From contig NZ_PJMS01000001.1 of assembly GCF_002846555.1 (NCBI RefSeq), positions 4,634,501-4,698,500 of the forward strand: a stretch of DNA of 64,000 nucleotides, in the 5' to 3' direction. Within the stretch, counting starts at the first letter, position 1. Each line of letters begins with the position of its first letter. The notes beneath the pieces are model-generated. The model was not told the origin of the DNA. It worked only from the letters and a program-made list of their open reading frames with translations, and searched no databases. The DNA is from Aquimarina sp. MAR_2010_214. GTDB taxonomy: Bacteria; Bacteroidota; Bacteroidia; Flavobacteriales; Flavobacteriaceae. Of the stretch, positions 4,613 through 18,439 are shown in pieces. A program made the translations under genes and the position numbers.

Positions 4613-5878
4613 TCATATCAAAAACTGAAACAGATCAGGTTTATCATTTAGATAATCCCCAAAGAAATTAAGGGCCTTCATTCTGGACACCAAAGGCTCA
4701 AGATCTTTCTTATCTTTTAATTCAATCCCAACTACTGCCGGGCCATTTTCTCTACTTGATTTTTTTGAATATTCGAAATGAGTGATATCATCATTCGGCC
4801 CTAGTACTTCTCCAACAAATTGTTTTAATGCTCCTGCTCTCTGCGGGAAACGAACTATGAAATAATGTTTTAGGTCTGCATATAACAATGCTCTTTCTTT
4901 AATTTCTGCAGTACGGGTAATATCATTATTACTACCACTCACAATGCAAACTACATTTTTACCTTTGATTTTATCTTTATAAAATTCTAGAGCAGCCAAG
5001 GTTAGCGCACCTGCGGGTTCTACCACAATAGCATCTCTATTATATAAATCTAAAATAGTCTGGCACACCAATCCCTCTGGAACAGTATACATATCAGACA
5101 GGTAATCTTTACAAATATCAAAATTAAGATCTCCTACTTTCTGAACTGCTGCACCATCAATAAATTTATCAATATTAAAAATCTCTGTATTCTTATTATT
5201 CTGGATAGATGATAACATAGAAGGTGCTCCTTCTGGTTCAATACCAATAATTTTTGTTTTTGGGGACAAGGCTTTCATTGCTCCACATAATCCTGAAGCC
5301 AATCCTCCTCCTCCAATAGCAACAAAAATATAATCAATAGGTACATCTGTTTGTTTAAAAATTTCGAGCCCTATTGTTCCTTGGCCTTCTATAGTTTTTG
5401 GATCTTCGAAAGGGTGAACAAACGTCTTTCCTTCAGAAGTACAGGTTGCCATTGCTGCTTTATACGAATCATCAAATGTATCGCCTTCCAAAACAATCTT
5501 TACATAATCACCTCCAAACATTTTTGTTTGTGCTATCTTTTGTTTTGGTGTTACCGAAGGCATATAAACTGTACCTTCTATTCCCAAATGATGGCAAGCA
5601 AATGCTACTCCTTGTGCATGATTTCCTGCACTGGCACAAACAACTCCTTTTGCTAATTCTTCTTTGGTAAGTGAACTTATTTTATTAAAAGCACCTCTAA
5701 TTTTATAGGAACGAACACGCTGAAGATCTTCTCGTTTCAATAAAATATTAGCATCATATCTGCGAGAATACCGAATACTATTCATAAGAGGAGTAACCAT
5801 AGCCACTTCTTTTATTGTTGAAGCTGCCTTCTGGATATCCTCTAATTCAGGAAAATATGTCGTGGTTATGGTACTCAT
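4613..5878 (-). CDS. ilvA: Threonine dehydratase (threonine deaminase), biosynthetic
   Basis: 421 residues. The PLP-dependent fold type II domain covers about residues 20-330: SYKIRGAFNK contains the PLP lysine, ASAGNHAQGVAF the Asn loop, and AIGGGGLASGL the phosphate-binding glycine loop. Residues about 335-421 form a single ACT-like regulatory domain (YFIVRFPQRAGALKQFVGEV), as in the shorter Firmicutes/Bacteroidota type; E. coli IlvA has two. It converts threonine to 2-oxobutanoate, the entry to isoleucine. It is the last gene of the ilvDBNCA operon, 139 bp after ilvC, and so should be under the same leader attenuation. Confidence 0.93.
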   Translation of the reverse strand: MSTITTTYFPELEDIQKAASTIKEVAMVTPLMNSIRYSRRYDANILLKREDLQRVRSYKIRGAFNKISSLTKEELAKGVVCASAGNHAQGVAFACHHLGIEGTVYMPSVTPKQKIAQTKMFGGDYVKIVLEGDTFDDSYKAAMATCTSEGKTFVHPFEDPKTIEGQGTIGLEIFKQTDVPIDYIFVAIGGGGLASGLCGAMKALSPKTKIIGIEPEGAPSMLSSIQNNKNTEIFNIDKFIDGAAVQKVGDLNFDICKDYLSDMYTVPEGLVCQTILDLYNRDAIVVEPAGALTLAALEFYKDKIKGKNVVCIVSGSNNDITRTAEIKERALLYADLKHYFIVRFPQRAGALKQFVGEVLGPNDDITHFEYSKKSSRENGPAVVGIELKDKKDLEPLVSRMKALNFFGDYLNDKPDLFQFLI

Positions 5879-6017: not shown

Positions 6018-7493
6018 TTATACTATCGGTTTCATTGCTGTCATCGATGCTCTTAAGCGAGCTCCAACAACTTCTATAGGATGATTTCTTAATTTTTCAT
6101 TCACTTCTATCAATTTAGCATTATCCACTCCCTTATCTTTTCCTTCATCGTATGCTTTTCCGATAACATCGGTATCTATTTTTTTCATAAAATCTGCTAG
6201 TAAAGGCTTACATGCATGATCAAATAAATAACAACCATATTCTGCAGTATCAGAGATCACTCGATTCATCTCAAACAATTTCTTACGTGCAATCGTATTA
6301 GCTATAAGCGGAGTTTCATGCAACGATTCATAATATGCTGATTCTTCAATGATTCCAGAATCTGTCATCGCCTCAAAAGCTAGTTCAACTCCTGCTCTTA
6401 CCATAGCTACCATTAATACTCCATTATCATAGAATTCTTGTTCAGAAATTTCCACATCTCCTGCCGGAGTTTTCTCGAATGCGGTCTCCCCTGTTGCTGC
6501 CCTCCAGGATAATAAGTTTTTATCATCATTTGCCCAGTCTTCCATCATCGTTTTTGAAAAATGCCCTTGCATAATGTCATCCATATGTTTACGAAATAAC
6601 GGACGCATGATTTCCTTTAATTCTTCAGAAAGTTCAAATGCTTTTATTTTTGATCGGTTTGATAATCGATCCATCATATTTGTGATTCCGCCATACTTCA
6701 TTCCCTCAGTAATAGTTTCCCAACCATATTGAATTAGTTTTGAAGCATATCCTGGATCTATTCCTTTTTCTATCATTTTGTCAAAACATAAAATAGATCC
6801 GGTTTGCAGTAATCCACATAGAATCGTCTGTTCCCCCATAAGATCAGATTTTACTTCAGCTACAAAAGAAGATTCTAACACTCCTGCTCGATGTCCCCCT
6901 GTTCCTGCTGCATATGCTTTTGCCTGAACCAAACCATGCCCTTGAGGATCATTTTCTGGATGTACCGCTATTAATGTCGGTACTCCAAACCCTCTTTTAT
7001 ATTCTTCTCTCACTTCTGATCCGGGGCATTTTGGAGCTACCATGATCACTGTAAGATCATCTCTCACTTCCATACCTTCTTCTACAATATTAAACCCATG
7101 TGAGTATGACAACGTTGCTCCTTTTTTCATTAATGGCATTACTGTATTTACCACTTGAGTATGTTGTTTATCTGGTGTCAGGTTAATAACAACATCAGCA
7201 TTAGGAATCAATTCTTCATAAGTCCCTACATTGAATCCGTTATCAGATGCATTTTTGAAAGATTGTCTTTTTTCTTTGATTGCTGCTTCACGAAGTGCAT
7301 ACGAAATATCCAAACCAGAGTCTCTCATATTTAACCCTTGGTTAAGTCCCTGGGCTCCACACCCAACGATAACCATTTTTTTCCCTTTTAGTGGATCTAC
7401 TCCTGCCGTAAACTCTTCGGCATCCATAAATCTACATTTTCCTAGTTGTGTTAGTTGATCTCTTAATGATAGCGTATTAAAGTAATTTGCCAT
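6018..7493 (-). CDS. ilvC: Ketol-acid reductoisomerase (NADP+), class II long form
   Basis: 491 residues, the length of the long class II enzyme of E. coli and plants; the short class I form is about 330. The Rossmann glycine motif [12 protein letters not shown] is near residue 44-55, followed by the KARI domains, the second of which is duplicated in the long form. Conserved metal-binding acidic segments such as [11 protein letters not shown] are present. It isomerises and reduces acetolactate or acetohydroxybutyrate to the dihydroxy acids, using NADPH and Mg2+. It lies between ilvN and ilvA in the operon, preceded by a 192-bp gap holding an inverted-repeat element. Confidence 0.94.
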
Positions 7494-7685: not shown

Positions 7686-8219
7686 TTACACGGTTTCCAT
7701 TCCAAAATTTTCTAATATATTAGAAATATGCATCTTTTCTTTTGTTATTGAAATCCTACCCGAACGCACAAATTGCATTAAACCATAAGGTTCTAATTGA
7801 TCATACAATGCTTCAACATCTCTGCGTCGTCCTGTTTTTTCTAATACAAAAAATTCTGGAGTTACAGTAACGATATTAGCATTACTGTCTTTTATTACAT
7901 TCTGGATTTTACGTTCTTCAAATAATAATTTTGAAGCAATCTTAAACAAAGCCGTTTCCTGGTAAATCGTCTCATCGTCTTTATGATAAAAAGCTTTAAT
8001 CACTTCTATCTGCTTTTCTATCTGTCCGATAATCTTTTTCACCTGTTCTTCGGTTATACATGCCACGATAGTAAAACGAAATACATCTTTAATCTCGGAT
8101 ACCGAAGCAGTAAAGCTTTCAAGGTTGATATGACGTCTTAAAAATATTGCCGAAATCCTGTTCAACAATCCTATATTATTTTCGGTATACACCGATATGG
8201 TATAATTTTCTTTTTTCAT
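7686..8219 (-). CDS. ilvN: Acetolactate synthase small (regulatory) subunit
   Basis: 177 residues. The N-terminal ACT domain (residues 5-80) has the pattern YTISVYTENNIGLLNRISAI, typical of valine-binding IlvN/IlvH. A C-terminal ALS small-subunit domain follows (residues about 90-170, VTPEFFVLEKTGRRRDVEAL). It binds and activates IlvB and gives feedback inhibition by valine. It lies 58 bp downstream of ilvB, in the usual order. Confidence 0.92.
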   Translation of the reverse strand: MKKENYTISVYTENNIGLLNRISAIFLRRHINLESFTASVSEIKDVFRFTIVACITEEQVKKIIGQIEKQIEVIKAFYHKDDETIYQETALFKIASKLLFEERKIQNVIKDSNANIVTVTPEFFVLEKTGRRRDVEALYDQLEPYGLMQFVRSGRISITKEKMHISNILENFGMETV

Positions 8220-8277: not shown

Positions 8278-10011
8278 TTATTCTAATCTTACATCTGAAA
8301 CTGATGCCCCTGTAGGAATCATCGGAAACACATTATTTTCTTTCTCTACACATACTTCTAAAAAATATGATTCTGTTGAAGCTATCATCTCTGTAATGGC
8401 TTTTTGTAAATGCTCTCTTTTGGTAACTCTGGTAGATTTAATATGATATCCTTCTGCTATTTTTACAAAATCTGGATTTACCATCTCTGTAGAAGCATAT
8501 CGTTTATCAAAAAATAGTTGTTGCCATTGACGTACCATTCCTAGAAAACTATTATTTAAGACAACAACCTTTACAGGTACTTTGGTCTGAAAAATTGTAC
8601 CCAACTCCTGTATTGTCATCTGGTAGCCACCATCTCCAATAATCGCTACTACTTCTCTATCTGGAGCTCCCATTTTTGCACCAATCGCTGCAGGTAATGC
8701 AAATCCCATTGTTCCTAAACCTCCTGAAGTAATATTACTCTTAGATTTAGTAAACTCGGCATATCGACAGGCCATCATTTGATGTTGTCCTACATCAGAT
8801 ACAATCACTGCATCTCCTTTGGTTTCTTCATTAATTCCTCTAAGTACTTCACCCATAGACAAGCCTTCACTACTAGGATACAACTCTTCTTTGATTACTT
8901 TATCATACTCAATTGTATCATAATCTTTATATTGTTGTACCCATGAATCATGAGACTTTGATTCTACCATCGGAAGTATCTGTGATAATGTATTCTTAAC
9001 ATTACCCATTACTGCAATATCAGCTTTCACATTTTTATTTACCTCTGCAGGATCAATCTCAAAATGTATAACTTTTGCTTGTTTGGCATAGGTTTCTAAA
9101 TTGCCAGTCACTCTATCATCAAAACGCATTCCGATTGCCAATAACAAATCACATTCATTCGTTAGTTTATTAGGACCATAATTACCATGCATACCTACCA
9201 TCCCTACATTAAGGAGGTGTTTTGTTGGCAATGCAGAAAGCCCCAAAATGGTCCATGCTGATGGGATTCCTGATTTCTCTATAAAGTTTTTCAACTCTTC
9301 TTCTGCTTCTCCAAGGATTACTCCCTGACCAAATACAATCATTGGTTTTTTTGCCTCATTGATCAGTTTAGCTGCTTCTTCAAGGCTTTTTGGATCTGTT
9401 TCTGGTACTGGCTTATAACTACGTACACCTTTACATTTTTCATATGTAAAATCTAACTCGCCAAACTGCGCGTCTTTTGTAATATCAATTAATACAGGAC
9501 CTGGTCGACCAGAGCGAGCAACATAAAAAGCTTTTGCTAATACCGCAGGAATATCTTCGGCTTTGGTAATCTGATGGTTCCATTTGGTGATTGGAGTAGA
9601 GATCCCTATGATATCGGTTTCCTGAAATGCATCTGACCCCAGTAAGTGAGATCCTACCTGACCAGTAATACACACCATAGGTGTAGAATCTATTTGTGCA
9701 TCTGCAATTCCGGTCACAAAATTAGTTGCTCCGGGTCCCGAAGTAGCAATTGCCACTCCAACTTTACCACTCGCCCTTGCATATCCCTGTGCCGCATGGG
9801 TTGCTCCTTGTTCGTGCCTGGTTAATACATGATGCAATTGATCTTGGAATTTATATAACTCATCATAGACCGGCATTATGGCTCCACCGGGATATCCATA
9901 AATTAAATCTACTCCTTCTTCCAATAAACATCGAATCACCGCCTCTGCTCCTGTCATACTCACTGTTGATGTTTTGGTTTCTTTTTTTAACGTTTGCGTT
10001 TGTGTTTCCAT
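8278..10011 (-). CDS. ilvB: Acetolactate synthase large (catalytic) subunit
   Basis: 577 residues. It has the three domains of TPP-dependent acetohydroxyacid synthases: an N-terminal Pyr domain with YGYPGGAIMPVYDEL and the catalytic-Glu segment TRHEQGATHAAQGYA; the central FAD-binding-type domain; and a C-terminal PP domain with the metal/TPP motif GDGGYQMTIQELGT, ending in NNSFLGMVRQWQ. It condenses pyruvate with pyruvate or 2-oxobutanoate, the shared step of valine, leucine and isoleucine synthesis. The N terminus has a 17-residue Thr/Lys-rich extension. It is separated from ilvD by 172 bp. Confidence 0.94.
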   Translation of the reverse strand: METQTQTLKKETKTSTVSMTGAEAVIRCLLEEGVDLIYGYPGGAIMPVYDELYKFQDQLHHVLTRHEQGATHAAQGYARASGKVGVAIATSGPGATNFVTGIADAQIDSTPMVCITGQVGSHLLGSDAFQETDIIGISTPITKWNHQITKAEDIPAVLAKAFYVARSGRPGPVLIDITKDAQFGELDFTYEKCKGVRSYKPVPETDPKSLEEAAKLINEAKKPMIVFGQGVILGEAEEELKNFIEKSGIPSAWTILGLSALPTKHLLNVGMVGMHGNYGPNKLTNECDLLLAIGMRFDDRVTGNLETYAKQAKVIHFEIDPAEVNKNVKADIAVMGNVKNTLSQILPMVESKSHDSWVQQYKDYDTIEYDKVIKEELYPSSEGLSMGEVLRGINEETKGDAVIVSDVGQHQMMACRYAEFTKSKSNITSGGLGTMGFALPAAIGAKMGAPDREVVAIIGDGGYQMTIQELGTIFQTKVPVKVVVLNNSFLGMVRQWQQLFFDKRYASTEMVNPDFVKIAEGYHIKSTRVTKREHLQKAITEMIASTESYFLEVCVEKENNVFPMIPTGASVSDVRLE

Positions 10012-10183: not shown

Positions 10184-11860
10184 TTAGAACTCATCAGTTA
10201 CACATCCCTCTGATGCAGAGGATACTGTATGCGCATATTTGTACAATACTCCTTTATTAAATTTTAATGCTGGTTGTACCCAAGAAGCTCTTCTTTTTTC
10301 AATTTCAGCAGTATCAATAGCCACTGTGATTGAGTTTGTCTCTGCATCAATAGTAATGATATCTCCATCTTTTACTAAAGCGATCAGGCCTCCTTCTTGT
10401 GCTTCGGGGGTAATATGTCCAACAACAAAACCATGCGTTCCTCCCGAAAATCTTCCATCTGTAATTAAGGCTACATCTTTACCCAAACCAGCTCCCATAA
10501 TCGCAGCGGTAGGCTTCAACATTTCTGGCATTCCCGGTCCTCCTTTTGGACCTTCGTATCGTATGACGACCACATCGCCTTTTTCTACTTTTCCATCTCT
10601 GATTCCATCATTAGCATCATATTCTCCATCAAAAACTTTGGCTTTTCCTTGAAACCGCAATCCTTCTTTACCTGTAATTTTTGCAACACATCCATCTTCA
10701 GCGAGATTACCAAACATGATTCTAAGGTGTCCTGTTGGTTTAATTGGATTCTCTATTGGCTTGATAACATCCTGCCCTTCTGCAAGATCAGGAACATCTA
10801 ATAAGTTTTCTGCAATTGTTTTTCCGGTAACGGTTAAGCAATCTCCATGTAGTAAACCTTTCTTTAAAAGATATTTTAACACGGCTGGAATTCCTCCAAC
10901 TTCATGCACATCTTCCATAAGGTATTTCCCACTTGGCTTAAGATCTGCCAAAAACGGAGTTTCATCACTAATTCTCTGAAAATCTGCTAATGTAAAATCT
11001 ACATCAGCAGCCCTGGCAATTGCCAAGAAGTGCAACACTGCATTCGTAGAACCACCAAGTATGGTTACTAAGCGTATTGCATTTTCGAGTGATTTCCTGG
11101 TTACTATATCTTTGGGTTTGATATCTTTTTCTAGTAGTATTCGCATGGCACGACCAGCCTGGATACTTTCTTCTTCTTTATTTTTACTTATTGCAGGATT
11201 CGAAGAATTATACGGTAAAGACATTCCTAACGCTTCAATTGCAGAGGCCATTGTATTTGCGGTATACATGCCTCCACAAGCTCCTGCGCCCGGGCATGCT
11301 TTCTCTATAACACTTTTGTACTCTGTTTGTGTTATTGTTCCTGCTACTTTTTCTCCCCAGGCTTCAAAAGCAGAAACTACATCCAGTTTTTTACCTTCAT
11401 GACGTCCAGATGCTATGGTTCCTCCGTAAACTAAAATCGAAGGGCGGTCTAATCTTAGCATTGCCATTAATGCACCCGGCATATTTTTATCACAGCCAAC
11501 AACGGTTACCATTCCATCATAAGACATTGCCTGTACTACCGTCTCCATAGAATCTGCAATTACATCACGAGATGGTAATGAAAAACGCATTCCTGGTGTT
11601 CCCATAGAGATCCCATCACTTACTCCGATAGTATTAAATATAAGTCCAACGACATCCTCTTCTAGAGTTCCTTGCTTTACCAATTTAGCAAGATCATTAA
11701 GGTGCATGTTACAAGGGTTCCCTTCATAACCTGTACTGGCAATTCCAACCAGTGGTTTATTAAAATCTTCATCAGTTAAACCAATTGCATGAAGCATGGC
11801 TTGTGCGGCTGGTTGTGTGTCATCTTGAGTGACTTGTTTACTATATTTATTGATGCTCAT
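10184..11860 (-). CDS. ilvD: Dihydroxy-acid dehydratase
   Basis: 558 residues, the normal length for the IlvD/Edd family. Fe-S cluster and substrate motifs are visible: [12 protein letters not shown] (with the cluster Cys), [19 protein letters not shown], and [15 protein letters not shown] near the C terminus. It dehydrates the 2,3-dihydroxy acids to 2-oxo acids, the third common step of branched-chain synthesis. It is the first structural gene of ilvDBNCA, with a leader of roughly 560 nt upstream that carries two tandem attenuators. Confidence 0.95.
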
Positions 11861-11901
11861 TTCGTTATTTAAATGTCAGTTTTTACGAATTATTTAAAAT
11901 T

Positions 11902-12027
11902 TTAACTTTTATATTGTGATATCTGTATCAGATTAAATAAACCACAGTATAAAATTATTTTGTTACAGCTAAACACATATACATTATTCAATACCCTTAC
12001 AATATCCAATAGTAGATTTACGAGCAT
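11902..12027 (-). other. Leu/Val-rich short ORF in the ilv leader (possible third leader peptide, weak)
   Basis: A 41-codon ORF between the second terminator and ilvD. Its first 18 residues, MLVNLLLDIVRVLNNVYV, contain 11 branched-chain residues (5 Leu, 5 Val, 1 Ile). No intrinsic terminator follows, only weak pairing near the ilvD side, so an attenuation role is speculative. It may be chance in AT-rich DNA. Confidence 0.25.
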
Positions 12028-12110
12028 TATTACCTGATTTACAATAACTTATATTTTGAAAATTTACAATCACTATTTGATAATTTTATTTGAGTATTCA
12101 TTATATATAT

Positions 12111-12141
12111 AAAAAAACTCCCTTCATTTTCTGAAGGGAGT
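12111..12141 (-). terminator. Attenuator terminator 2 (proximal) of the ilv operon
   Basis: On the minus strand ACTCCCTTCA and TGAAGGGAGT form a 10-bp perfect stem (12132-12141 with 12117-12126) around a 5-nt loop, and seven T follow (12111-12117). It lies 25 nt past the antiterminator strand next to the leader-2 stop codon and 250 nt before ilvD. The TCCCTTCA part of its 5' arm can pair instead with TGAAGGGA at 12167-12174. Confidence 0.9.
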
Positions 12142-12166
12142 CTGTATTTATTTTTATACAATAATG

Positions 12167-12174
12167 TCCCTTCA
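12167..12174 (-). promoter_or_regulatory. Antiterminator strand of attenuator 2 (TGAAGGGA)
   Basis: TGAAGGGA directly follows the leader-2 stop codon (12175-12177). It is perfectly complementary over 8 nt to TCCCTTCA in the 5' arm of the downstream terminator. A ribosome finishing the leader would cover it and allow termination; a ribosome stalled on the Ile/Val codons would leave it free to block the terminator. The mechanism is inferred by analogy with classical attenuators. Confidence 0.8.
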
Positions 12175-12237
12175 TCATGGTGAAATAATCACAATAATGA
12201 CAATGACATCACTAATTATATTGCTAAATATTCTCAT
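12175..12237 (-). CDS. ilv leader peptide 2 (Ile/Val-rich)
   Basis: A 20-codon ORF, MRIFSNIISDVIVIIVIISP, with 8 isoleucine and 3 valine codons, 7 of the Ile/Val codons within residues 11-18. It is followed at once by an antiterminator strand and an intrinsic terminator. This is the layout of leader peptides controlling branched-chain operons such as E. coli ilvGMEDA. Its end (codons GTG ATT ATT TCA C) is the same as in leader 1, so the two probably arose by duplication. It likely has no function apart from sensing charged tRNA-Ile and tRNA-Val. Confidence 0.85.
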   Translation of the reverse strand: MRIFSNIISDVIVIIVIISP

Positions 12238-12287
12238 TTCTACTTTTTAGAATTAATTTTAGATTCTAATCTTAATACCTTTTATAC

Positions 12288-12322
12288 AAAAAAAAATCCC
12301 TTTACTCAAGTAAAGGGATTTT
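12288..12322 (-). terminator. Attenuator terminator 1 (distal) of the ilv operon
   Basis: On the minus strand AAAATCCCTTTAC and GTAAAGGGATTTT pair (12310-12322 with 12293-12305) around a 4-nt loop, and the T-tract runs to nine T at 12288-12296. It follows leader 1 by about 30 nt and precedes the start of leader 2 by about 50 nt. The ATCCCTT part can pair alternatively with AAGGGAT at 12346-12352. Confidence 0.9.
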
Positions 12323-12345
12323 AATATCATATATAGTATTAATAT

Positions 12346-12352
12346 ATCCCTT
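12346..12352 (-). promoter_or_regulatory. Antiterminator strand of attenuator 1 (AAGGGAT)
   Basis: AAGGGAT overlaps the last two bases of the leader-1 TAA stop codon and is complementary to ATCCCTT in the 5' arm of terminator 1. The geometry is the same as in attenuator 2. Leader 1 also holds a GAAGTGA-TTATT-TCACTTC hairpin inside its last codons, a candidate pause structure. Confidence 0.75.
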
Positions 12353-12416
12353 ATCGAAGTGAAATAATCACTTCAATACTAATGACTGTATTAATATTTA
12401 TGTTTCTAGTATTCAT
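12351..12416 (-). CDS. ilv leader peptide 1 (Ile/Val-rich)
   Basis: A 21-codon ORF starting MNTRNININ and ending VIISLR, with 6 Ile, 2 Val and 1 Leu codons concentrated in the second half. The ATG lies about 5 nt after the predicted transcription start, so the mRNA would be nearly leaderless. Stop codon, antiterminator strand and terminator 1 follow in order. It is clearly related to leader 2 at its 3' end (GTGATTATTTCAC). It is not a protein-coding gene in the usual sense; its role is ribosome-stalling control of ilvDBNCA. Confidence 0.83.
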   Translation of the reverse strand: MNTRNININTVISIEVIISLR

Positions 12417-12425
12417 TTATGTGTT

Positions 12426-12458
12426 CAAATATAGGAAAATATTTTTGTGAAATACAAA
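12426..12458 (-). promoter_or_regulatory. Promoter of the ilvDBNCA operon (TTTG-N21-TATATTTG)
   Basis: The minus strand has a -33 TTTG at 12455-12458 and a -7 TATATTTG at 12426-12433, separated by 21 nt, a full match to the Bacteroidota TTG/TAnnTTTG consensus. The predicted start is near 12420, just before the leader-1 ATG, which fits the attenuator layout. Confidence 0.7.
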
Positions 12459-12659
12459 TACTAAATTATTTTTTTATAATGAACTCTTCTTGCTTTTTTT
12501 GATTCAACCTAAAAAAGATGGCTATCTTCAAAGCATTTTTAGAAAAAATCAAAAAATCTATTTGTGAAGATTTAGTTTAAAAACAAGACCCTTCATCAAC
12601 AATTAAAGGCCTTATTTTTTCAAATCCCGAGTTTTGACTACTTAGGATTTAGCTTTATA

Positions 12660-15600
12660 CTAAAACTTAATAAGCCTTAAGGTTTCTGTATGTTTATTAG
12701 CTTGTATTTTTACAAAATAATTTCCAGATGATTTTATTTTATCTCCTAATAGTATTGTACCTGGATTTTTGCTATACTCTTCATTGATCAATTCTTTTCC
12801 TAATAAATTATATACGGTTATTGTAAATGTATCGCTTTCTAATCTTGATACATCTATGGTAACGGTTTCTTCAAATGGATTAGGGTATATACTAACCCTA
12901 TTTTCTGAGGTTCTCTCTTTTTGCCTAGTTGGTCTTTTTGTAAGTAAACCTTGATCTGCTGTAGTATTATATGCATAATCTTTAATAATGTATGACAATC
13001 CATCATTAGCTACTGTAGCATAAAACCATCCATAATGTGTGTTTCCTCCTATTTTAAATGTAAATCCTATATAACCAGATTTACCTCTCCAATCTGTGTA
13101 CGAAGATGAACTTACCATAAAACTATTAGAATTGGCTACAAAATTACTAGCTGCACCAACCTCTACTCCTTCTTCAATAAACGTAGCGTTACTAGTTGTT
13201 CCTTCACAAACAACATTTTTTCCATAATTCACTAATCGAAGTGAATTATTAGTGAACCACGCTCCAAAACCATTATCATCACCAACTTCTATTCTAAAGA
13301 AATTCCAGGTACTTGAAGAGTTTGTTGTTTCATCACTCATATCCACATAAACCACAGTTCCATTAGTAGCACAAGGACTGCAAGATCCTCCGCAGTCTAC
13401 ACCTGTCTCGTTTCCATTTTGTATACCATCTGTGCATGTAGGGCTTGTAGACCCTCCTACTGTTACAGTATAATCTTCAACCTCTCCAAGATAAGTATCA
13501 GTACCGCAAGGTGTTATTTTTGCTTCAGACCCATATCCTGCTCGTACTCTCATACGTAATGAAGTCCCAGAAACTGCACTTGCCGGTGGAGTAATAGTAC
13601 TTGTATATGGACCTGCAGCAAATCGAGAGTATACCTTTTCGCCCGAATCGGTAAAATCTCCATTATTATTCCAGTCAATCCATACGCCTACCGCATTATA
13701 TGTCCAGGTATTATTATTCATGGTTATCGTTAATGCAGTTGCTTGCCCGTTAGTAAGATTTGTAGACTGATTTGTAAAATCATTATATGCAGCATTTGTG
13801 GAACTATTATTTATAGATCCTAAGCTAACATTGGTAATGTGTAAGGTAGCATTTTGAGTGGTCGAAGCTGCACAGTAGGTTACATTTGTATTACAAGGGT
13901 TACAATCAGGCCCACCACAATCTACACCAGTTTCATTACCATTCTGAATGCCATCGTTGCATGTTGGGTCTACTGTACAAGGGTCACAATCAGGCCCACC
14001 ACAATCAACTCCGGTTTCATTACCGTTCTGAATACCATCATTACAGGTTGGATTGGAACTTCCACCTTTAATAAATAGAAAATAATCTTCTACTTCATCA
14101 CCATTAGTTCTTGCTGTTCCACAAGGCTCAGGGGCAGTATGTATTTTATAACGTACTCTTAATCTGGTCGCGCCACTTTTTGCGGTATGAGGAACTACAA
14201 CAGTTGTTGTTACACCACCGGCACCATTGGTTGTTAATAAAACTTCTTCACCTGCATCTTCAAAATCTCCATCTTTATTCCAATCAATCCAAGCTCCAAA
14301 ATAATTAGGATCCCAGAAATCGATTCCTGGATTAATGGTTAAAGCAACAGACTCGCCTTTAGTAATGTTGGTTCCCAGGTTCGTAAAATCAGAATACGCA
14401 CCATTTTCACTTTTATTATTGATAGCACCAAAGATAACTTCGTCTATATAATTATTCCCTTGATAACCCGCAGCACAATAATTTGTAGGCATAGGATCCA
14501 AATTTCCATTGGTAATACTAAAATTAGCATTTGTAATATCAAAAAAGATATTATTCGTACCTCTTACCATAATTCTATTTACACCTCCTTCATTGTCTGG
14601 TATTATAATTTGTTGAGAACCATCGTTAGGTACCGCAGAAGCCAATGTTATTGGGTATGTGTTTCCACCATCTGTAGATAATAAAATATCTACTGTAGCT
14701 GCATTTACCCCATTTCCTGTGGTTCCTGCTACATTCCAGGTTACTGTTTGCGTAGAACCTACTGGCGCATCAAATCTAGTGTTTTGAGAAGTGATCATAA
14801 AAGGACCGGCATTTCCACTTACCGTAATAACTGCATCCTTAGAATCGGTATTACCTCCTCCCGGATGATTATCTCTTACGGTAAATCTAAAATTCATCAT
14901 TCTGGAAACAGAAGGTGTTACCTCCCATTCTGAAGAAGCATTTCCAGCCTTTATGGTAGAAAGGTCAGGCATATATCTCTTTGGAGATGTTGTAGGTGGT
15001 TGATAACGGAATAAAGGACCGTTAGTTGACGTTGCACGAGGAGGCATAGGAGCTATTTCCTTATCCATTTGGTTCCAGCTATACGTTAGTTGATCGGCTG
15101 AATTAGCATCAGTAGCAGACCCTTCTAATATAAATGGAGTAGATCTTGGAATCGTATAATTACCTCCTACACTAGCTGCTGGCGCACTATTACCTATTGA
15201 TTTTGTTGTACCGCAACCTGCTGTACTTACAATATGATTCCACATTTCATCTATTTGTTTCGCATGAAAAAATAGATATTGCGTATTTGCTGTATTAGGA
15301 GCACAACCTGTATATGCCATGATCGTATTACCCCCTCCTGGTTCAACGGCACCTTCGTCCAAACGATTACCTCCACATGAGTTGTTAAACGAATGGTTAG
15401 CACCGAATTGATGACCTATTTCATGAACGAATGTGACAAAGAAATAATCATTGACAGATGTGAAAGGATGTGCACCAGTAGCTCCTTCAGCTTTTTTACT
15501 ATCAACACATACAGCTCTTAAAGCTCCACGTCCAGTCCCATCTGAATCCAAAACATGACCAATATCATAGTTAGCGTTACCAATTTTAGCATCAAGAATA

Positions 15601-16481
15601 GCTTGAACCTCATTTACTGATGCTGAAGTATTACCATGCGTAAAACCGTCAGTTACTGGGTCAAGAAAAATGGAATTGTCCATATTAGGTACTAACTCAA
15701 ACGTAGTTCCAAGATCTCGTTCGTAAATCGCATTCACTCTTGTTATGAGTACATTCAACTCGGCAAGTACTGCGGCTTTCCTTTGTTGAGTTGAACCATT
15801 TGTAACGTTTGCCTTATCAGTATAAATTTTAGACAACTCTCCCGTTACTGCTATAGCCATTCGGTAGACTCTAACACGACCATCATTAGCATCTTTTCTT
15901 GCTTTGTTTGATTTTTCAGCTTGCTTTGTACTTTTTTCTAAAAAAGGTCTGACTGCGTGATCAATTGCTTGACAGTTAATTGATGCTGATCCCTCCGTTT
16001 TTGAAGTAACCACATACGTTTTACTATTACTAGTAGAAGGTTTGATATTCGTTATTGTAGCATCAGGCTTCATAATCATAGCCCTAAAGTTATTATACCC
16101 CAAACTAAAATGGACTACTCCACCTTCTCCACTAACAGATGTAGCGACATAAGATTTAATGTCTGGAAACTTCTTAGCTAAATCCGGATGTAAAACACTT
16201 GATTCCTTTACGCGGTATTCTTTAAATTCTCCACGTTCGGTAGGAAGTGTGATAATGACATTTGATTGGCCAAATGAATTGAATCTTTGAGGACAATGAG
16301 ATAAAACTTCCTTCAATTTTTCAACACTAAGGTGGTAAGTGTTTTGGTTTGAAATCTTCTTAGTTGAAGAAATGTTTTTGTTTTCAATAGGGCTACTATT
16401 TTTTTTCCAAAAATTTTTGGTTTGTGAAAATCCAAATTGGAAAACAAATAAGCCTACAAATAAGACAAGTTGATTTTTCAT
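12660..16481 (-). CDS. Secreted reprolysin-like metalloprotease with GEVED domains and T9SS sorting domain
   Basis: 1273 residues. The signal peptide is residues 1-19 (cleavage before QTK) and a propeptide runs to about 200. A metzincin catalytic domain spans about 205-420, with HEIGHQFGANH giving zinc ligands H353, H357 and H363 and catalytic E354, and a downstream Met-turn NTIMAYTG. Ig/PKD-like regions follow, then two GEVED domains (about 655-790 and 860-1015, each ending GDEVEDY or GEVEDY). Three Cys-rich repeats (CNDGIQNGNETGVDCGG type) separate them. A lamin-tail-like region and a type A T9SS C-terminal sorting domain (VSIYPNPFEETVTI) end the protein. It should be exported by Sec, crossed over the outer membrane by T9SS and act outside the cell. 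It is monocistronic. Confidence 0.9.
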   Translation of the reverse strand: MKNQLVLFVGLFVFQFGFSQTKNFWKKNSSPIENKNISSTKKISNQNTYHLSVEKLKEVLSHCPQRFNSFGQSNVIITLPTERGEFKEYRVKESSVLHPDLAKKFPDIKSYVATSVSGEGGVVHFSLGYNNFRAMIMKPDATITNIKPSTSNSKTYVVTSKTEGSASINCQAIDHAVRPFLEKSTKQAEKSNKARKDANDGRVRVYRMAIAVTGELSKIYTDKANVTNGSTQQRKAAVLAELNVLITRVNAIYERDLGTTFELVPNMDNSIFLDPVTDGFTHGNTSASVNEVQAILDAKIGNANYDIGHVLDSDGTGRGALRAVCVDSKKAEGATGAHPFTSVNDYFFVTFVHEIGHQFGANHSFNNSCGGNRLDEGAVEPGGGNTIMAYTGCAPNTANTQYLFFHAKQIDEMWNHIVSTAGCGTTKSIGNSAPAASVGGNYTIPRSTPFILEGSATDANSADQLTYSWNQMDKEIAPMPPRATSTNGPLFRYQPPTTSPKRYMPDLSTIKAGNASSEWEVTPSVSRMMNFRFTVRDNHPGGGNTDSKDAVITVSGNAGPFMITSQNTRFDAPVGSTQTVTWNVAGTTGNGVNAATVDILLSTDGGNTYPITLASAVPNDGSQQIIIPDNEGGVNRIMVRGTNNIFFDITNANFSITNGNLDPMPTNYCAAGYQGNNYIDEVIFGAINNKSENGAYSDFTNLGTNITKGESVALTINPGIDFWDPNYFGAWIDWNKDGDFEDAGEEVLLTTNGAGGVTTTVVVPHTAKSGATRLRVRYKIHTAPEPCGTARTNGDEVEDYFLFIKGGSSNPTCNDGIQNGNETGVDCGGPDCDPCTVDPTCNDGIQNGNETGVDCGGPDCNPCNTNVTYCAASTTQNATLHITNVSLGSINNSSTNAAYNDFTNQSTNLTNGQATALTITMNNNTWTYNAVGVWIDWNNNGDFTDSGEKVYSRFAAGPYTSTITPPASAVSGTSLRMRVRAGYGSEAKITPCGTDTYLGEVEDYTVTVGGSTSPTCTDGIQNGNETGVDCGGSCSPCATNGTVVYVDMSDETTNSSSTWNFFRIEVGDDNGFGAWFTNNSLRLVNYGKNVVCEGTTSNATFIEEGVEVGAASNFVANSNSFMVSSSSYTDWRGKSGYIGFTFKIGGNTHYGWFYATVANDGLSYIIKDYAYNTTADQGLLTKRPTRQKERTSENRVSIYPNPFEETVTIDVSRLESDTFTITVYNLLGKELINEEYSKNPGTILLGDKIKSSGNYFVKIQANKHTETLRLIKF

Positions 16482-17788: not shown

Positions 17789-18439
17789 TCACTCAATCTT
17801 GAAAAGCTTATTTTTCATACAATAAATCACTAAGCCTACTCTAGTTTTTACTTCTAACTTTTTAAACACCGTTTCTCTATAATTCTCTATTGTTTTAGGG
17901 CTTAACCCCATTTCTCCAGCGATACCTCTATAGGTAAGTTCTGAGCATGCAAATTTTAAAAATACTCGTTCTTTATCTGTTAATTTCTCCTGTAGGTTTT
18001 TACTACCTCCAGCTTCTTCAGAATTACGTAGTGCTGTTTCAATCTTACCCGAATAATAGAACCCTTGTTCTATGACCATCTTCATAGCAAACTCAAAATT
18101 TTCGGGATGTATATCTTTCAGTAAATATCCTTTGGCTCCTGCTCTAAGCATTCTAATAATGGTTTCTTCATCATCTTCCATTGTTAATGCCAGTACTTTT
18201 TGATCTGGTCGATTTTCTTTAAGCCATTGCATCGTTTGCACACCATCCATCACAGGCATTTTTACATCCAAAAGAATAAGATCTGGTGTCTTTCTTTTAT
18301 GTAAGTAGTATTGAGTGAGCTCTTTTCCATTTTTTAGAATTGCTAAAACCTCATACTTCTCAAGTTTAGATATTAAACTTTCTAGTGATTGTGCAAATAA
18401 AAGATGATCATCGACAATAACTATAGTCTTTTTCTTCAT
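17789..18439 (-). CDS. NarL/FixJ-family response regulator
   Basis: 216 residues. The receiver domain (residues 4-125) has the acidic pair D10-D11, phospho-acceptor D58 in LILLDVKMP, the switch Thr in LALTMEDD and the Lys of GYLLKDIHP. The LuxR-type helix-turn-helix at about 150-210 reads LTDKERVFLKFACSELTYRG, then IAGEMGLSPKTIENYRETVF. It is a DNA-binding transcription factor controlled by phosphorylation. The likely partner is the histidine kinase at 18863-19633, 423 bp upstream on the same strand, with a repeat element between. The target genes are unknown; a GGGGTATTTACCCC palindrome upstream of the kinase operon is a possible site. Confidence 0.9.
   Translation of the reverse strand: MKKKTIVIVDDHLLFAQSLESLISKLEKYEVLAILKNGKELTQYYLHKRKTPDLILLDVKMPVMDGVQTMQWLKENRPDQKVLALTMEDDEETIIRMLRAGAKGYLLKDIHPENFEFAMKMVIEQGFYYSGKIETALRNSEEAGGSKNLQEKLTDKERVFLKFACSELTYRGIAGEMGLSPKTIENYRETVFKKLEVKTRVGLVIYCMKNKLFKIE

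Follow-up and report, generated by a model that had tools for sequence, protein, structure and literature searches.

Two leader-peptide attenuators predicted in series upstream of the ilvD operon of Aquimarina

Leader-peptide (ribosome-mediated) attenuators control the ilv, leu, his and trp operons of enterobacteria, and the thrZ leader of Bacillus subtilis is a triple T-box. Leader-peptide attenuation of trp is described in a report that also presents the tandem attenuators of the Salmonella mgtCBR leader, which respond to ATP and proline in an additive manner (PMC3641672). Tandem T-boxes on branched-chain amino acid (BCAA) genes are described as enriched exclusively in Bacillota, and a digital, pseudo-cooperative response is expected by the authors (PMC12452182). 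Two macrolide attenuators of mefA/msrD have been called a double-lock against leak (PMC10314930), and a second terminator follows in tandem in the rimP-leader of several Gammaproteobacteria (PMC2965389). Closer to the organism considered here, strong clues of leader-peptide attenuation upstream of amino-acid operons were reported for Flavobacterium psychrophilum (PMC9723704). Among the matches listed from open-licence PMC titles, abstract starts and passages, none describes a same-signal pair of leader-peptide attenuators on a biosynthetic operon.

The DNA analysed here, referred to as the window, is a 64,000-nucleotide stretch of Aquimarina sp. MAR_2010_214 (contig NZ_PJMS01000001.1, positions 4,634,501 to 4,698,500). 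On its minus strand, at 12458-12111, two complete leader-peptide attenuators lie in tandem upstream of ilvD-B-N-C-A (Table 1). Each module displays the same order: a leader ORF, a hairpin over the leader end (P1), an antiterminator strand near the stop codon and a terminator, with folding energies of -14.2 kcal/mol for terminator 1 and -17.8 kcal/mol for terminator 2. The promoter, both leaders, the complementary strands and both terminators proposed in an initial annotation are all present. Its placement of the complementary strand at the leader stop codon needs a small correction for module 2, where the strand starts directly after the stop and contains a second TGA. The promoter is presumably of the Bacteroidota -33/-7 type, and the transcript is predicted to start a few bases upstream of the leader 1 ATG.

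Table 1. Elements of the two attenuator modules and the genes downstream, in window coordinates.
Feature	Position	Strand	Basis or detail
Promoter, TTTG-N21-TATATTTG	12426..12458	-	sequence; TTTG 12458-12455, TATATTTG 12433-12426
Leader ORF 1, MNTRNININTVISIEVIISLR then stop, 21 aa, 6 Ile + 2 Val	12351..12416	-	sequence; in-frame selection
Outer stem of module 1	12337..12396	-	MFE fold; 12396-12389 with 12344-12337, 12386-12384 with 12348-12346
Hairpin P1 of module 1, 11 bp, loop TTATT, covers leader 1 end and stop codon	12352..12378	-	covariation, fold
Antiterminator strand 1, AAGGGAT	12346..12352	-	complementary to ATCCCTT of terminator 1
Terminator 1, then T run (9 T in all)	12288..12321	-	stem 12321-12310 with 12305-12294
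Leader ORF 2, MRIFSNIISDVIVIIVIISP then stop, 20 aa, 8 Ile + 3 Val	12175..12237	-	sequence; in-frame selection
Outer stem of module 2, encloses P1 and antiterminator strand 2	12159..12214	-	12214-12205 with 12168-12159
Hairpin P1 of module 2, covers leader 2 end	12173..12199	-	12199-12189 with 12183-12173, one mismatch
Antiterminator strand 2, TGAAGGGA	12167..12174	-	complementary to TCCCTTCA of terminator 2
Terminator 2, then T run (7 T)	12111..12143	-	stem 12143-12132 with 12126-12115
ilvD, dihydroxy-acid dehydratase, first controlled gene	10184..11860	-	NCBIfam TIGR00110 above cut-off
ilvB, acetolactate synthase large subunit	8278..10011	-	TIGR00118 above cut-off
ilvN, acetolactate synthase small subunit	7686..8219	-	TIGR00119 above cut-off
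ilvC, ketol-acid reductoisomerase	6018..7493	-	NF003557 and TIGR00465 above cut-off
ilvA, threonine ammonia-lyase	4613..5878	-	NF006390 and TIGR02079 above cut-off

The tandem modules sit between ilvD and a gene at 12660-16481 encoding a protein with a T9SS tail. In several relatives the gene ending just upstream of the leader resembles, by eye, the LuxR-type response regulator encoded at 17789-18439; in the window the T9SS-tail protein gene intervenes between the two. On the other side, the approximately 250 bases from terminator 2 to ilvD (11861-12110) are conserved across Aquimarina, with TAGTGATTGTAAA, TTGGATATTGTAAG, AAATAATTTTA and a repeated ATTGTAA (36 of the 42 two-module genomes described below were aligned), and parts of this stretch persist in a locus of the set that is devoid of an attenuator (L025). 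It matches no Rfam family above cut-off and could be a further control element.

Modules were sought with a detector that requires three parts together: a terminator, an ATG ORF rich in Ile, Val or Leu that ends a short distance upstream of it, and a strand complementary to the terminator 5' arm. IlvD is present in 64/66 Aquimarina genomes, and 63 distinct upstream regions were examined. For one genome with an IlvD (G317) there is no upstream sequence. Two modules were found in 42 of these, one in 8 and none in 13 under relaxed rules (41, 9 and 13 under strict rules), figures that undercount the modules according to a by-eye reading of 520 bases at each single-module locus. Read in this way, a complete second leader and hairpin are still present in L217, where the T run is short, and a second leader can be seen in L148. 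Loci L031, L128, L131, L141 and L213 appear truly single. Since single-module loci of either type exist, loss of either module occurs, and the 13 regions without a module together with the 8 with one indicate that the doubling is dispensable. Nevertheless, the doubling appears to be a retained design rather than accidental, given that many relatives within the genus share the pair and some other genera have a different one. The motif TAnnTTTG lies within 32 nt of the leader 1 ATG in 26/42 two-module genomes, and TAnnTTT followed by A or C in a further 12/42, as compared to 1/42 and 4/42 before leader 2. With leader 1 thus preceded by a promoter motif in 38/42 genomes and leader 2 in 5/42, a single polymerase should encounter both terminators.

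Both leader peptides are rich in the amino acids made by the operon. Isoleucine and valine account for 8/21 residues in leader 1 of the window and 11/20 in leader 2, and the means over the 42 genomes are 6.14 Ile, 2.26 Val and 0.33 Leu per peptide for leader 1 and 7.24 Ile, 3.05 Val and 0.45 Leu for leader 2. Using single-base codon differences between leaders at least 75% identical (pairs that are not independent of each other), the N/S ratio of leader 1 was 0.49 of expectation in frame vs 2.24 and 0.76 in the shifted frames, and that of leader 2 was 0.38 vs 0.77 and 0.75, which indicates in-frame purifying selection on both. Valine is encoded by GTC or GTG in 192/223 leader codons of the 42 genomes vs 75/333 in eleven ORFs of the window, a preference that the hairpin, codon sensitivity or both may cause. 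Given the abundance of Ile and Val in the two leaders and their near lack of Leu, it is most likely that the same signal is read twice. The higher valine average of leader 2 would fit modules that sense different amino acids, the first mainly Ile and the second Ile plus Val, joined as an OR or AND gate. We regard this arrangement as unlikely, given that Ile and Val both occur within the productive window of each leader, ahead of its stop, and that the type A and type B leaders of other genera (defined below) display no Ile/Val split (6.44 and 4.68 Ile, 2.11 and 2.04 Val per peptide, respectively).

The RNA structure of both modules was assessed by comparative folding. RNAalifold recovered the leader-end hairpin in both modules, an additional 5-bp stem in module 1 (columns 12-16/44-48) and, in module 2, the outer stem around the hairpin and the antiterminator strand. 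The corresponding outer stem of module 1, which encloses P1 and antiterminator strand 1, is absent from the RNAalifold consensus of that module. In module 1, 94.1% of cells are paired and both-side changes occur in 13/24 pairs (shuffled mean 5.6), and in module 2 the values are 91.0% and 14/32 pairs (shuffled mean 8.1), with 0/500 shuffles as high in either case, in controls that ignore relatedness. When the partners of module 2 were slid by +1, 15 pairs still had both-side changes, in 36 cells vs 58 unslid, while the paired fraction fell to 43.4% and the covariation score from 0.290 to 0.061. For the outer stem of module 2 alone, the covariation score was matched by 2/500 shuffles and the count of doubly changed pairs by 313/500 (7 vs 4 when slid +1). 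From these alignments, the leader-end hairpins and the terminators covary in both modules. The P1 hairpins are also more stable than expected from random synonymous codons (mean z of -2.22 for module 1 and -2.51 for module 2 over 42 genomes), falling at or under 5% of the synonymous shuffles in 21/42 and 25/42 genomes, respectively. An enclosing stem is present in the MFE folds of 41/42 (module 1) and 39/42 (module 2) genomes vs 76% and 78% with shuffled spacers, which is a modest excess. The cognate antiterminator pairing exceeds that of permuted partners in module 1 (p of 0.0002) but not significantly in module 2 (p of 0.086), in permutations that likewise ignore relatedness. The two ilv attenuators in series that had been read from the window are therefore borne out by structure, coding selection, covariation and conservation across the genus.

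The effect of ribosome position was assessed by partition-function modelling of the transcript up to the terminator 3' arm, in which the ribosome masks 13 nt in front of the A site (a single value was used) and the readout is the pairing of the terminator 5' arm with any upstream base, not with the antiterminator strand alone. Over the 42 genomes, mean 5' arm pairing was 0.20 (module 1) and 0.27 (module 2) with the ribosome at the stop codon, and rose to 0.74-0.81 with the ribosome stalled 4-11 codons before it. The values in the model without a ribosome, 0.58 for module 1 and 0.61 for module 2, imply that the outer stem protects only in part. In the window itself, module 1 goes from 0.07 at the stop to 0.68 when stalled, and module 2 from 0.52 to 0.81, a contrast that is not clean.

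From this anatomy we infer the following course of stalling, pausing, termination and antitermination, which follows the logic of classical attenuation. With ample Ile and Val, the ribosome would arrive at the leader stop and cover the antiterminator strand, allowing the terminator to form and end transcription. A shortage of Ile-tRNA or Val-tRNA would make the ribosome stall at least 4 codons before the stop; this would break the outer stem, free the antiterminator strand to pair with the terminator 5' arm and let RNA polymerase read through. P1, adjoining the antiterminator strand, is probably a pause hairpin that holds the polymerase for the ribosome. Overall, we favour two ribosome-controlled attenuators in series on one transcript, both reading the charging of Ile and Val tRNAs, with a probability of about 0.85. 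Since the polymerase would pass module 1 and then module 2 before ilvD, the chances of passing would multiply, a read-through of p per module becoming p squared for both by simple arithmetic. The need to pass both modules would provide lower leak at plenty, a wider range and a steeper response; a multiplied response is what this layout would predict, and the steeper or two-threshold response suggested in the initial annotation is plausible.

The less clean fold contrast of module 2 in the window, together with the 8/63 Aquimarina regions in which a single module of either type can suffice, would fit a reading in which one module regulates alone and the other is a duplication leftover with weak activity. 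We consider this rather improbable, since both leaders are selected in frame, both terminators are strong and both hairpin sets covary over 42 genomes. It is less probable still that terminated leader RNAs or leader peptides act in trans and that attenuation is secondary: a trans role has been reported for the leader peptide peTrpL (PMC7298713), but conservation here follows a cis logic and nothing in this cis-directed analysis points to a trans target. Although AT-rich sequence readily yields enclosing stems, as the shuffled spacers demonstrate, a chance origin of the hairpins and ORFs in such intergenic DNA is scarcely credible against the pair in 42/63 regions and the shuffle controls that follow.

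The strict detector flagged no module in any of 660 dinucleotide-shuffled genus upstream regions and one module in 3/66 reverse complements. Over both strands of the 64-kb window it flagged 3 strict modules, two of which are the ilv pair. In an independent scan of 11861-12660, 3 terminator-like sites were found vs a shuffled mean of 0.1, and these correspond to terminators 1 and 2 and the plus-strand mirror of terminator 2. Folding of the leader region, as had been suggested, showed both modules to be far more stable than their shuffles (z of -5.7 for module 1 and -7.0 for module 2, with 0/200 shuffles as low). No Rfam family, leader families included, exceeded its gathering cut-off at 11861-12700, the best being Phe_leader with 28.5 bits vs a cut-off of 55, and the 22 cmscan matches to this region up to E 5 do not include a T-box.

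Loci outside the genus were chosen by highest IlvD similarity and not at random (28, of more matching genomes, plus 58 plus 56, giving 133 distinct regions after merging), so their counts are not family frequencies. Within 1000 bases, these 133 regions hold two modules in 12, one in 45 and none in 76 under relaxed rules, and 8, 42 and 83 under strict rules, the "none" class including one region of only 61 bases (L101). In the 78 loci with longer flanks, relaxed rules gave two modules in 16, one in 29 and none in 33. Because the loci scored "none" include three with an ilvE-like frame in between (L041, L046, L157) and one with an imperfect terminator (L151), the module counts outside the genus are lower bounds. 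Terminators were typed by their arm, with CTTCC or a near variant as A-type and CTGTATC or CTATATC as B-type. Fifteen of the 16 two-module loci (15/78 loci) carry an A-type followed by a B-type terminator, a set that excludes L197 for its doubtful first leader; in a separate reading of two-module loci L064 is doubtful too. Carriers of the A+B pair include Tenacibaculum (6), Bizionia (2), Gelidibacter, Gaetbulibacter, Kordia and one MAG. In 10 of the 15 the pair precedes a reading frame upstream of ilvD, all 10 pass the strict rules, and the frame looks like ilvE in the examples read by eye. The distance from the pair to ilvD downstream is roughly 1 kb or greater in L043, L055, L157, L160, L165, L169, L172, L182, L184 and L204. 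Given this distance and the ilvE-like frame, ilvE may have joined the operon at these loci.

On an IlvD tree of 127 rows, a quick tree with many weak forks, the two-module state is clustered but scattered, requiring 16 changes vs a shuffled mean of 40.8 (0/500 as low). The nearest neighbour of 82/84 Aquimarina modules is the module at the same position in another genome (53/84 with close relatives left out), and on this basis a recent duplication was rejected as the origin of the pair. Leaders 1 and 2 of Aquimarina have a similarity of 0.683 (shuffled baseline 0.511), whereas their similarities are 0.625 and 0.615 to type A and 0.551 and 0.549 to type B, in a comparison with 36 A and 25 B leaders taken within 1000 bases of ilvD by narrow arm patterns that leave out the Tenacibaculum-type A. 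The two Aquimarina modules are nearer to A and to each other, and the view that they simply match A and B, respectively, from other genera was rejected. The modules had been called clearly duplicated; leaders 1 and 2 are indeed closest to each other, but the duplication is old. The GTGATTATTTCAC common to both leader 3' ends, offered as a sign of it, is real and occurs also in 11/69 modules outside the genus, so that alone it proves no duplication. The simplest reading of these similarities is that an A-like module was duplicated long ago in Aquimarina and that the A+B pair elsewhere is separate, and homogenisation between modules is a possible source of their likeness. Since the Aquimarina modules are nearer to each other than to A or B, the doubling probably arose at least twice.

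The remark that classical operons use one such module agrees with other operons of the same genome. Upstream of hisG a single attenuator was detected, encoding MNNIFVHHHHSYIFAQAW with four His codons (L233, approximately 1184-1300), and a single His module was flagged in 10/11 hisG loci. Upstream of trpE there is apparently one attenuator, encoding MKTILTNNWWWSSQNENVVR with three Trp codons (L261, approximately 1290-1415), whose leader was read by eye since the detector rule required four Trp. Terminator-like sites were present in 1/20 HDH loci (L246), with no leader flagged there, and in 0/3 further stretches of the same genome searched for attenuators (HDH, leuA).

As a well-supported anatomy, the tandem ilv attenuators appear to be a variant of known attenuation. 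They share with the enterobacterial attenuators a leader ORF with control codons, alternative hairpins, a terminator and the cognate biosynthetic operon, and differ in having two full modules in series and nearly no Leu control codons. In addition, P1 in Aquimarina adjoins the antiterminator strand with an overlap of 1-2 bases, whereas the enterobacterial counterpart contains it. The mgtCBR leader likewise has two leader ORFs on one leader mRNA, as described, but it responds to two signals through stem-loops unlike intrinsic terminators, whereas each Aquimarina module has an intrinsic terminator and both leaders, having the same control codons, do not appear to serve different signals. The mefA/msrD system resembles the present one in its two leader-peptide attenuators and differs in its macrolide response and in the resistance genes described as its targets. 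The rimP-leader combines a potential antiterminator with two serial terminators, and the passages of its source name no leader peptide for it (PMC2965389). The F. psychrophilum study concerns the same family and amino-acid biosynthesis operons, although its main text contains neither 'ilv' nor 'isoleucine'; the present loci show predicted leader-peptide attenuation in a repeated layout in Flavobacteriaceae, for one member of which that study gave general clues (PMC9723704).

The nearest parallel is that of the tandem T-boxes, which, as described, also put a pair of full sensors, each with its terminator, in series on ilv genes and read tRNA charging. The difference is that T-boxes bind uncharged tRNA directly, whereas in Aquimarina a translating ribosome would read charging, and the phyla differ. 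We tentatively propose, at somewhat less than even odds, that serial same-signal leader-peptide attenuators are an established feature of BCAA operons in Flavobacteriaceae, having arisen on two or more occasions (as two A-like modules in Aquimarina and as the A+B pair in others) and acting as a multiplicative, near-digital gate. The relatives with zero, one and two modules would offer a natural set for testing the gain from a second attenuator in leak, range and steepness. If the proposal is true, the Flavobacteriaceae tandem attenuators would be the ribosome-read counterpart of the Bacillota tandem T-boxes on the same genes. The parallel with tandem T-boxes on the same pathway in another phylum suggests a common demand of branched-chain amino acid control.
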